This document shows, piece by piece, positions 1-7,376 of a stretch of DNA of 64,000 nucleotides (position 1 is its first letter; each line of letters starts with the position of its first letter). The position numbers and the translations under genes were made by a program. The stretch comes from Sinorhizobium americanum (GTDB taxonomy: Bacteria; Pseudomonadota; Alphaproteobacteria; Rhizobiales; Rhizobiaceae), in contig NZ_LNQC01000080.1 of NCBI RefSeq assembly GCF_001651855.1, forward strand, positions 1-64,000, given 5' to 3'. The notes beneath the pieces were generated by a model. It saw only the letters and a list, made by a program, of their open reading frames with translations, was not told where the DNA came from and did not search any database.

Positions 1-66
1 AGACAACGACCGACGCCGCGCCTTGTAGGCGCGGAGAGGATGTCCTTTGCTTGACAGACCCAGCCC

Positions 67-94
67 AAAAAGAGAAGCCCGGCATTGCCGGGCT
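67..94 (-). terminator. Intrinsic terminator of rpmE
   Basis: A GC-rich inverted repeat (AGCCCGGCA and TGCCGGGCT, 76-94) is followed on the minus strand by TCTCTTTTT. It lies about 25 bases past the rpmE stop. Upstream of it, bases 17-35 hold another hairpin (CCGCGCC-N5-GGCGCGG) without a clear T-run, which may belong to a gene outside the window. Confidence 0.8.
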
Positions 95-118
95 CCAGAA
101 ACGCGATATCGCGAGCGA

Positions 119-340
119 TTAGAGGCCGAGGCCCTCGAAGCGCTTCTTGAACTTGGAAACGCGGCCGCCGCGGTCGACGAGCTGCTGGTTGCCGCCGGTC
201 CAAGCCGGGTGCGACTTGGAGTCGATTTCGAGGTTCATGACTGCGCCTTCCGAACCCCAGGTCGAGCGGGTTTCGTATTCGGTGCCGTCGGTCATGACCA
301 CCTTGATCGTGTGGTATTCGGGATGGATGCCTGCCTTCAT
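119..340 (-). CDS. rpmE: 50S ribosomal protein L31 (zinc-independent form)
   Basis: The 73-residue product has the L31 opening [10 protein letters not shown] and the conserved region around [10 protein letters not shown], and it matches the full family length. It is a component of the large ribosomal subunit that helps bridge the 50S and 30S subunits. The protein has no cysteine at all, so the CxC/CxxC zinc site of C+ L31 proteins is missing and this is the zinc-free form. The start is ATG with AGGAAG about 7 bases upstream. It is monocistronic: a terminator follows and a divergent ABC exporter gene lies upstream. A nested hairpin sits in its leader at 363-398. Confidence 0.97.
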
Positions 341-362
341 AACAATCTTCCTAGAGTTCCAG

Positions 363-398
363 GGTCCAATTGTCGCAAGGCATTGCGACTTTGGGACC
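363..398 (-). promoter_or_regulatory. Candidate structured leader of rpmE
   Basis: About 23-58 bases upstream of the rpmE start the minus strand can fold into a two-layer stem. The inner stem is GTCGCAA paired with TTGCGAC around a 4-base loop (372-389). The outer stem is GGTCC paired with GGACC (363-367 and 394-398), separated from the inner stem by a 4x4 internal loop. The position fits an mRNA leader. L31 leaders that mediate autoregulation are known in other phyla; assigning that role here is inference. Confidence 0.45.
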
Positions 399-539
399 GA
401 ACACGTAAATGAAGCCGCGGACCGCTCTCGGCCACGGCTTCTTCAATTCGATGCCGTGCCTATACATGAAGGTCCGCGGGATAACAAGTGCCGCGCGGAA
501 GACTAATCGACCCTCCGTGACAGGCGATCGGGGGGTCAC

Positions 540-2339
540 GTGCCAAGACAAGAGAACCAAGCGCGAGAGCGCAAGTCCGTCCGGCCACTTGCAGCCGTGC
601 TGCCCTATGTCAGGCGATACCGCCGCTTCGCGATCGGCGCCGCCATATCGCTGACGATCGCCGCGGTGACCACGCTGACGCTGCCGCTGGCCGTCCGCCG
701 GATGATCGACCACGGCTTTTCCAATTCCGATTCCGCTTTCATCAATACCTATTTCACCATGCTGATGGTGCTGGCCATCATCCTGGCGCTGGCGAGCGCC
801 GCCCGCTATTATTTCGTCATTTCCCTCGGAGAGCGCATCGTCGCCGATTTGAGGCGCGACGTCTTCGCCCGCGTCACGGGCCTTTCCGCCTCCTTCTTCG
901 ACGTCAACCAGTCCGGCGAGATCGTCTCCCGCCTGACCGCGGACACGACGCAGATCAAGTCGGCGGTCGGCGCCACGGCATCCGTCGCGCTGCGCAACCT
1001 GATCCTCTGTCTGGGCGCGATCGCCATGATGGTCTATACCAGCCCGAAGCTGTCGAGCCTGGTGATCGCCGCCATTCCGCTGATCGTCTTTCCCCTCGTC
1101 GGCTTCGGCCGCTCCGTCCGCCGCCGCGCCCGCGAGGCGCAGGACACGCTGGCCGCCGCCTCCGCCTATGCCGGGGAGGCGATCGCCGCCACCCGCACGC
1201 TGCAGGCCTTCAATGGCGAGGCGAGCGCCAACAACCGCTTCGGCGCCGCCGTGGAGGAGGCCTATGGCGCCGCCCGCGCGGCGATCCGGGCACGCTCGGC
1301 ACTCACCGCCTTTGCCATCACCATGGTGTTCGGCAGCGTCGTCGCGGTGCTCTGGTTCGGAGCCCGCGACGTCCTTGACGGAACGCTTTCGGCCGGCACG
1401 CTCAGCCAGTTCCTGCTCTATTCGGTCTTTGCCGCCGGCAGCCTCGGAGCGCTCTCGGAAGTCTGGGGCGAAATCTCGCAGGCCGCAGGCGCCGCCGAGC
1501 GCCTGAACGAGCTCCTGAGCGAAGTCCCGCAGATCCGTGCTCCCGAGTTCCCCGCCCCAATGCCCGCACCGGCCAGGGGGGCGATCGCGTTCGACGACGT
1601 GCACTTCGCCTATCCGGCGCGCCCCGACTATAAGAGCCTCAAGGGCCTGAGCCTGGCGGTGGAGCAGGGCGAGACCGTTGCCATCGTCGGCCCTTCCGGC
1701 GCCGGCAAGAGCACGGTGTTCTCGATGCTCCTGCGCTATTACGACCCGATCAAGGGAGCCGTGCTGGTCGACGGCATCGACATCCGCAGCGTCGACCCGA
1801 AAGACCTGCGCGAACGGATCGCGATCGTGCCGCAGGACGTGACGATCTTCGCCGCCTCGGTGCATGACAACATCGCCTTCGGCACGGCGGCGAGCCGCGA
1901 GGCGGTGCAGGCGGCCGCCATCGCGGCGCAGGCCGACGAGTTCATCGCAAGGCTCGACCGCGGCTACGACACGCTGGTCGGCGAGCGCGGCGTGACGCTT
2001 TCCGGCGGCCAGCGCCAGCGTATCGCCATTGCCCGGGCGATTCTCAGGGACGCGCCGATCCTGCTCCTCGACGAAGCGACGTCGGCCCTCGACGCGGAGA
2101 GCGAGACGCTGGTGCAGAAGGCGCTCGACGGGCTGATGCGGGAGCGCACCACACTCGTCATCGCGCATCGGCTGGCGACGGTGCTGAAGGCGGACCGCAT
2201 CCTGGTCATGGATCACGGCCGCATCGTCGAGGAAGGCACCCACGCATCGCTGATCCGCCAGGGCGGGCTCTATGCCAAGCTCGCGCGGCTCCAGTTTGAT
2301 CACGGGGCGGAAGGATTGTTTGTCGCATCCCAGGTCTGA
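540..2339 (+). CDS. ABC exporter, fused membrane and ATPase domains
   Basis: This 599-residue protein is a half-transporter of the MsbA/type I exporter class, which works as a dimer in the inner membrane to export lipids, drugs or peptides; the substrate cannot be told from sequence. The exporter membrane domain covers roughly residues 25-325 (segments around 30-50 and 75-95 are clear). The ATPase domain covers about 350-585, with Walker A GPSGAGKST near residue 384, signature LSGGQRQR near 486, Walker B ILLLDEATSALD near 507 and the switch histidine in VIAHRLAT. All catalytic motifs are intact. The start is GTG preceded by a G-rich run. It is divergent from rpmE and looks monocistronic. Confidence 0.9.
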   Translation: MPRQENQARERKSVRPLAAVLPYVRRYRRFAIGAAISLTIAAVTTLTLPLAVRRMIDHGFSNSDSAFINTYFTMLMVLAIILALASAARYYFVISLGERIVADLRRDVFARVTGLSASFFDVNQSGEIVSRLTADTTQIKSAVGATASVALRNLILCLGAIAMMVYTSPKLSSLVIAAIPLIVFPLVGFGRSVRRRAREAQDTLAAASAYAGEAIAATRTLQAFNGEASANNRFGAAVEEAYGAARAAIRARSALTAFAITMVFGSVVAVLWFGARDVLDGTLSAGTLSQFLLYSVFAAGSLGALSEVWGEISQAAGAAERLNELLSEVPQIRAPEFPAPMPAPARGAIAFDDVHFAYPARPDYKSLKGLSLAVEQGETVAIVGPSGAGKSTVFSMLLRYYDPIKGAVLVDGIDIRSVDPKDLRERIAIVPQDVTIFAASVHDNIAFGTAASREAVQAAAIAAQADEFIARLDRGYDTLVGERGVTLSGGQRQRIAIARAILRDAPILLLDEATSALDAESETLVQKALDGLMRERTTLVIAHRLATVLKADRILVMDHGRIVEEGTHASLIRQGGLYAKLARLQFDHGAEGLFVASQV

Positions 2340-6269: not shown

Positions 6270-7376
6270 TCAGTCACTCCCGCTTTCGTCGGCGTGGCTG
6301 AGCTTCGCCTGCGACGTGGTCCTCTCGCTGTTGACGGCGATCCGGTCGGCCTGGCCGATGCGCGAGGTCAGCCGGTCGAGCGTCTTGCGCATCGATTTCG
6401 CCTCTTCTTGCTGCGCCTCGATCCAGTCGCGGAGCATCTGCTGCTCGCCGCGCATGTTCTTGACGAGGCCCTGGATGCCCTCGGCGAGGCTCGCCATCGC
6501 CGCCGTGGTGCGCTGGTTGACGCCGCCGTCCTGCGCGAGGCGGGAGAGCTGGTCGGCAACGCGCCGCATTTCCTCCGCCGGTGCGCCGCCGGTCGTCTCG
6601 ATCGGCGCCGAAAAGCCGGAGCCGACATCGGTCACCGACGAAAGCCAGTTCTCAAGCTCCGTGTAGAAGCGGTTCTGGGCACGGCCGGCCTGGAGATCGA
6701 GGAAGCCGAGGATCAGCGAACCGGAAAGGCCGAACAGCGAGGCCGAGAAGGCGGTACCCATGCCGGTCAGCGGCGCCGACAGGCCGCTCTTCAGCGAGCT
6801 CAGGAGGTCCTCCGTCGTGCCGGAACCGGCGTCGAGCGATTGAATGACGGTATTGATCGAGCCGATCGTCCCGAGGAGACCCCAGAAGGTGCCGAGCAGG
6901 CCGAGAAAGACGAGGAGGCCGGCAAGATAGCGGGTGATGTCGCGCGACTCGTCGAGGCGGGTGGCGATGGAATCGAGGATCGAGCGGAGCGCGATCGTCG
7001 AAATCGCCGTCGTCTGGCGCCCGCCGATCAGCGCCCGCATGGGGGCAAGCAGCACCGGATCGCGCCCGACCTTATCGGCACTGCCCGCAGCGCGGAACGA
7101 GTTGAACCAGCGCACTTCGGGCCTGAGGCCGAGCACGTGGTTGAATGCCAGCAGAATGCCGATCAACAGCACCCCGAGGATCAGCCCGTTGAGGCCGGGG
7201 TTGCCGACGAAGGCTTCGCGTGCCTGCCGGAAGAGGATCGCCGCGACAAAACCGACGATGATCAGGAAGATGACCATCGTCCAGAAATACGGCATCGGGC
7301 TCGAAAGCTTGTGCGGATTATAGTTCTCCTCCGCCACTTCCTGCCCACGCCAGCCGGACAGACTCAGTTTCGTCAT
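6270..7376 (-). CDS. MotA/TolQ/ExbB-family proton channel subunit
   Basis: About 368 residues. Two membrane segments lie near residues 30-50 and 62-85. A MotA/TolQ/ExbB core follows with helices near 150-175 (FLGLLGTFWGLLGTIGSI) and 205-235 (GMGTAFSASLFGLSGSLI). The C-terminal 100 residues are polar and helical, probably a cytoplasmic coiled coil. Together with the adjoining OmpA-like protein it resembles a stator: the channel subunit pumps ions and the partner anchors to peptidoglycan. The ATG at 7376 has GGGAGA upstream and gives MTKLSLSGWRG; a 17-residue longer reading from 7427 is less likely. A hairpin (7412-7431) lies just upstream. Confidence 0.85.
   Translation of the reverse strand: MTKLSLSGWRGQEVAEENYNPHKLSSPMPYFWTMVIFLIIVGFVAAILFRQAREAFVGNPGLNGLILGVLLIGILLAFNHVLGLRPEVRWFNSFRAAGSADKVGRDPVLLAPMRALIGGRQTTAISTIALRSILDSIATRLDESRDITRYLAGLLVFLGLLGTFWGLLGTIGSINTVIQSLDAGSGTTEDLLSSLKSGLSAPLTGMGTAFSASLFGLSGSLILGFLDLQAGRAQNRFYTELENWLSSVTDVGSGFSAPIETTGGAPAEEMRRVADQLSRLAQDGGVNQRTTAAMASLAEGIQGLVKNMRGEQQMLRDWIEAQQEEAKSMRKTLDRLTSRIGQADRIAVNSERTTSQAKLSHADESGSD

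Follow-up and report, generated by a model that had tools for sequence, protein, structure and literature searches.

Five leaders of ribosomal protein L31 are described in the accessible text of Eckert and Weinberg 2020 (PMC7247131), from Actinobacteria, Coriobacteria, Corynebacteriaceae, Firmicutes and Gammaproteobacteria, and none in that list, as given there, is alphaproteobacterial. In gammaproteobacteria bL31 binds an operator in its own mRNA and thereby represses its translation; the operator is an irregular hairpin with an AU-rich enhancer on one side and the Shine-Dalgarno sequence on the other, and the N-terminus of L31 is said to be the repressing part in E. coli (available sections of PMC10931766). 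Repression by the paralogue L31p likewise requires the E. coli stem-loop, as stated in the available part of PMC9825181. Like the leader studied here, the other L31 leaders of Eckert and Weinberg are rpmE leaders, described in the accessible text as single hairpins each belonging to one phylum, and none of those listed there comes from the Alphaproteobacteria. The alphaproteobacterial L2 leader and the L17 leader of Alphaproteobacteria and Actinobacteria (PMC7247131, accessible text) are of the same class in comparison to the rhizobial leader, but concern other genes and proteins. Among the papers listed by a literature search, mostly of open papers, none showed an alphaproteobacterial L31 leader, and the S. 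meliloti papers on start sites and on sRNAs do not mention "rpmE" in their main text, as far as these were available.

The rpmE leader of Sinorhizobium americanum and RF03157

The window analyzed here is a stretch of 64,000 nucleotides from Sinorhizobium americanum, in which rpmE occupies positions 119-340 on the minus strand and encodes an L31 of 73 amino acids, assigned by the NCBIfam L31 equivalogs NF001809 and TIGR00105. This L31 contains no cysteine and is thus without the CxxC zinc motif. The rpmE genes of highest identity are those of Sinorhizobium/Ensifer; rpmE was present in 196 of 199 genomes of the order and 150 of 151 genomes of the family, with a single match reported for the genome of the window. 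Directly 3' of rpmE, at 74-96 on the minus strand, the terminator scan of the window placed an intrinsic terminator-like hairpin of 10 pairs, 8 of them G-C, followed by a T run, one such hairpin being found in comparison to 1.0 expected in shuffles. The sequence thereby suggests that rpmE is transcribed as a single-gene unit, and since it is apparently alone on its transcript, with this hairpin at its 3' side, L31 would be the natural ligand of any control in the leader.

In its order of parts the leader resembles RF03157: both precede rpmE in a single-gene unit, and both carry an AU-rich stretch upstream of an irregular hairpin, which is followed by about 10 nt and the Shine-Dalgarno sequence. 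The RF03157 hairpin in E. coli ends 10 nt before GAGG, and the corresponding hairpin of the window, P2, ends 10 nt before AGGA, while the two L31 proteins, aligned from the N-terminus, share 43% identity over 69 columns. The two leaders differ in sequence and bulge pattern, and the rhizobial leader has an extra hairpin, P1. As a positive control, the RF03157 model matched E. coli at 60.1 bits with a cutoff of 33.2, and it gave no match in the window or in 12 relatives; conversely, the rhizobial leader model had no match with an E value of 10 or less in a 10-kb E. coli stretch with rpmE. This comparison shows a likeness in working, by analogy, and not membership of the family. Both the rhizobial P2 (GCGACAA, window positions 370-376) and the gammaproteobacterial L31 consensus (AGCGACAC; 6955-6992 in the E. 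coli stretch L253) carry GCGACA on the 3' side of the hairpin, which could be chance or a shared contact with L31.

At gathering cutoffs, Rfam 15 gave no match for the leader over the 64-kb window, nor in the 12 relatives. Over window positions 1-700 with E up to 5, no L31 family was among the matches, and five sub-cutoff matches there were rejected, such as a rhinovirus element at 21.4 bits in comparison to a cutoff of 45. The original prediction knew of no L31 leader in alphaproteobacteria, and this agrees with both the Rfam 15 result and the literature as far as it was accessible.

Two hairpins between promoter-like elements and the Shine-Dalgarno sequence

The hairpin first noticed, P2, lies at 363-398 on the minus strand, and its outermost base is 58 nt upstream of the A of the rpmE ATG. 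Its outer stem of 5 bp is formed by GGTCC (394-398) with GGACC (363-367) and its inner stem of 7 bp by GTCGCAA (383-389) with TTGCGAC (372-378); the two stems are separated by a 4x4 internal loop, CAAA (390-393) and AATT (368-371), and the terminal loop is TGCC (379-382). The nested 7-bp and 5-bp arms which had been reported are thus exact in the sequence, and the fold exceeds chance: positions 355-405 (51 nt) have a folding energy of -20.5 kcal/mol (z -3.88), with 0 of 200 dinucleotide shuffles as good. For the 116-nt leader at 338-453 the fold z was -4.94, again with 0 of 200 shuffles as good.

The whole minus-strand leader reads, in order, promoter-like pair, P1, AU-rich linker, P2, 10 nt, Shine-Dalgarno and ATG. 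The promoter-like pair was found by eye, the consensus promoter scan of the window having listed no promoter for rpmE, and it comprises a -35-like element TTGTTA (within CTTGTT; 482-487, minus strand) and, 17 nt from it, a -10-like element TATAGG (459-464, minus strand). Across the 41 aligned near leaders the identity was 0.80 over 485-490 and 0.97 over 459-467, in comparison to 0.31 in the spacer further upstream; TATAG was present in 83 of 85 leaders, with CTTG just upstream of it in 80 of these 83. From this pair we infer a transcription start at about 450-454, which gives a predicted leader of about 112 nt, and both hairpins should accordingly be in the mRNA. A start downstream of 363, which the original prediction had named as damaging to its proposal, is unlikely, since in the relatives as well both hairpins are preceded by the promoter-like elements.

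P1 adjoins P2 on its upstream side (411-441, minus strand) and is the stronger hairpin of the two by folding, with conserved arms. Its arms are GAAGCCGTGGCC (430-441) and GGTCCGCGGCTTC (411-423), enclosing a loop at 424-429. It is followed by the AU-rich linker ATTTACGTGTTC (399-410, minus strand), for which the mean A+T was 0.73 among the 69 of 85 leaders with a parsable linker, in comparison to 0.44 for whole leaders. The main rival to translational control arises from these two parts, namely a transcription attenuator in which P1 and its U-rich tail form a weak intrinsic terminator, L31 or another signal governs read-through, and P2 serves as anti-terminator partner or pause structure. In favor of this, the stem of P1 is GC-rich, reaches 12 bp and has a conserved U-rich stretch downstream, AUUUAUU or AAGUUUU, and the L10(L12)4 leader of B. 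subtilis works by attenuation (available part of PMC4538822). The U run, however, is short, often interrupted and 1-3 bases away from the stem, P1 is absent from the terminator scan of the window, and an unsystematic look noticed no conserved alternative pairing between P1 and P2, so that we regard attenuation as unlikely.

Downstream of P2 the Shine-Dalgarno AGGA (349-352, minus strand) is invariant in the 41 leaders; the gap between it and P2, 10 nt in the window, differs among leaders. The minimum free energy fold of the window places a possible small hairpin over it, P3 (CCTGG/CTAGG; 350-363, minus strand), which is poorly conserved: three of its pairs were formed in 55.7% of the cells of the 41 aligned leaders and a fourth in 23.5%, and the mean unpaired probability of AGGA was 0.37 in near leaders and 0.46 in distant ones. 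Sequestration of the Shine-Dalgarno sequence by P3 was dropped as the main mechanism. A pairing of the P1 loop with a P2 arm, judged by eye, was not conserved and was likewise set aside.

Conservation and covariation of the leader structure

For the near set, 41 dereplicated leaders were aligned from 44 selected, with L125, L137 and L143 left out. The results showed that 82.0% of the structure cells were paired in comparison to 32.7% to 41.8% in slid controls, and that pairing by helix was 90.9% for P1, 85.4% for P2 outer and 82.6% for P2 inner. Identity was 0.83 and 0.81 in the P1 arms in comparison to 0.22 in the P1 loop, and 0.80 and 0.79 in the P2 inner arms in comparison to 0.19 in the P2 terminal loop, with 0.69 and 0.75 in the P2 outer arms. 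Four leaders (L070, L080, L111 and L122) have a P2 loop of 14-16 bases instead of 4 with the flanking stem sequences unchanged, and a similar TGGCCCG-type insert was seen in three of them.

One reading of such a structure is a constitutive leader, in which the hairpins just protect the 5' end of the mRNA or tune translation without a regulator. A strong and stable hairpin close to the 5' end, P1, is shared by near and distant leaders and speaks for it, as does the fact that L31 binding to the rhizobial leader is argued by analogy; P2, however, is conserved and irregular, its internal loop being conserved on the 3' side (0.64) and not on the 5' side (0.33), and a general stabiliser should also turn up in front of other genes, while the whole-leader model matches rpmE alone. 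We consider this reading improbable. Also to be weighed is that the inverted repeats are DNA operators bound by a transcription factor that controls rpmE or its divergent neighbor, an MsbA-related ABC transporter gene (the pair spans window positions 119-2339). The pair was kept in 131 of 131 loci of at least 2.9 kb, some of them duplicates and other families of the order included, so that the whole intergenic region is possibly constrained as DNA and a changed neighbor could not serve to separate rpmE from the divergent gene. Against this, 68 of 85 leaders retain a U-G wobble in P1, consistent with pairing in RNA rather than with a DNA palindrome, the loop lengths vary and the terminal loops are unconserved, unlike the fixed spacing of operators, and little conservation is seen in the spacer past the rpmE promoter (0.31); a DNA element is thus very unlikely.

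In the more distant part of the family, with rpmE identity of about 67% to 84%, P1 was found in 33 of 98 by a strict pattern and in more by eye. In these leaders P2 often still begins with the core GG...CGCA while its arms differ, again by eye; the changed P2 arms include CGGGUGA/UCACCCG in L213, GGGCGA/UCGCCC in L165 and UGAGC/GCUCA in L162. The P2 core was unrecognisable in 45 of 214 family loci (some duplicates), and five family members with small genomes (L012, L174, L180, L227 and L232) had no such leader structure by eye. Among leaders with a confident core, the mean fold z over the 50 nt before P2, which is the P1 region, was -3.15 for near and -2.90 for distant leaders, and over the P2 region -1.69 and -1.04, in comparison to -0.28 and -0.51 in an upstream control.

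A custom script modelled on the null of R-scape was used as a tree-aware covariation test. With 104 leaders of rpmE identity of at least 81% no structural pair was significant; with 85 near and distant leaders in an unguided alignment, one borderline P1 pair was obtained (two-set E 0.044) and, at the same scope, no significant P2 pair. In an alignment fitted to the structure by the model (85 of 87 rows, two spurious rows dropped), the top pair overall was a P2 outer pair, with E 0.11 over all pairs. By the pair count, on an alignment likewise fitted to the structure, double changes occurred in 18 of 24 pairs, with 0 of 500 shuffles as high. The unguided alignment paired P2 less well, at 72.8% for the outer and 72.9% for the inner stem with slid outer arms reaching 58.3%, and RNAalifold, applied to the near leaders, gave P1 together with no more than four pairs of the inner P2 stem, the outer P2 stem being absent. 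The stems are highly conserved, so that the power of the covariation test is low, and in view of the weak tree-aware results, the unguided P2 pairing and the RNAalifold outcome we do not claim proven covariation.

The complementarity permutation, undereplicated and with the 45 loci lacking a recognisable core excluded, gave 0/10000 for all 133 leaders, 5/10000 for the 75 near and 126/10000 for the 58 distant leaders. When confident cores were dereplicated at 95%, the near set (374/20000) and the combined set (14/20000) were significant and the distant set (4826/20000) was not; at 80% dereplication no set was significant. The duplex-energy existence test was weak, with 47 of 200 shuffles doing as well as the near leaders and 10 of 200 as well as the distant ones, and the C/U partner test gave p values of 0.087, 0.30 and 0.18. 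A better anchored test, made after the permutation tests on leaders with a confident core (score of at least 3.5) and with related sequences counted separately, folded the P2 stretch alone: the nested P2 was obtained in 97% of the near (n = 66) and 81% of the distant leaders (n = 47), in comparison to 41% and 43% when only the 3' part was shuffled, with 0 of 100 shuffles as high. Compensatory changes in rpmE leaders, for which the original prediction had asked one to look, are present, while in the tree-aware test their signal ranges from absent to borderline.

Range of the leader and the proposed control of rpmE

Two covariance models were used to delimit the leader, R1 from 41 leaders and the wider R2 from 85 leaders. 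R1 matched 60 of the 151 family genomes, once each, and all 60 matches end exactly on the rpmE start codon; 20 of these leaders are in its training set, 37 are outside it and 3 were not determined. R2 matched 98 of the 151 genomes (63 of the 98 leaders in its alignment, 26 outside, 9 not determined), the other 53 giving no match, and 98 of its 100 matches are in the rpmE leader, the two elsewhere being weak (E 2.9e-4 and 7.5e-4). Altogether 97 of the 100 end on the start codon, and that in genome G246 ends 18 nt upstream; in this genome's rpmE locus (L169, contig C110) the Shine-Dalgarno stretch GCAGGACAGA is duplicated at the end of the leader.

Beyond the family sample, R2 matched 14 of 297 genomes of the order and, in the class sample of 289, only the window's own genome with the other 288 giving no match, both searches having been run with stricter filters, which lose weak matches. 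Twelve of the 14 are rpmE leaders, all in Rhizobiaceae, and five of them come from genomes (G355, G375, G394, G411 and G427) outside the training of R2, although their genera were represented in it; in these five rpmE adjoins the match. The order-level matches L251 and L252, from other families, have no rpmE in the 3.1 kb around them and were taken as chance. By eye, a different GC-rich palindromic hairpin of GGCGC...GCGCC type abuts the rpmE Shine-Dalgarno sequence in L010, L014, L016 and L023, which may be an L31 leader of its own kind in another family of the order.

The 5' leader of this ribosomal-protein gene thus contains a conserved RNA structure that is tied to rpmE. The proposal that 363-398 is a candidate L31 leader element held in that a conserved and structured leader accompanies rpmE in the family, and fell short in extent, since the element is larger than claimed and P1 had been missed. 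The most likely explanation is a new, lineage-specific ribosomal protein leader repressing translation of rpmE, which by analogy would work like RF03157 without being a member of it. We infer L31 as the ligand and translation as the level of control, and we put at roughly 70% the probability that this two-hairpin rpmE leader of the Rhizobiaceae is bound by free, excess L31, which thereby represses its own translation. In this mechanism L31 made beyond the need of the ribosomes would leave free L31, which would bind the leader, by analogy most likely at P2, and block loading of the 30S subunit, so that translation of L31 would fall; the role of P1 is probably to insulate or stabilise the 5' end, or to help present the AU-rich stretch. 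More tentatively, and with somewhat less than even confidence, the leader may be a sixth, independently evolved L31 operator, alphaproteobacterial, that converged on the E. coli layout, with the added and more strongly conserved P1 either forming part of a composite binding site or providing control at a second level, that of transcription.

The wider covariance model now picks out the rpmE leader across much of the Rhizobiaceae. L31 has unusually many unrelated lineage-specific leaders, and the rhizobial leader would add a regulatory family that is missing from Rfam 15, in a lineage for which we found no described L31 leader. It may offer, in good laboratory hosts such as Sinorhizobium meliloti, a clean test of how one protein recognises many different RNA hairpins.
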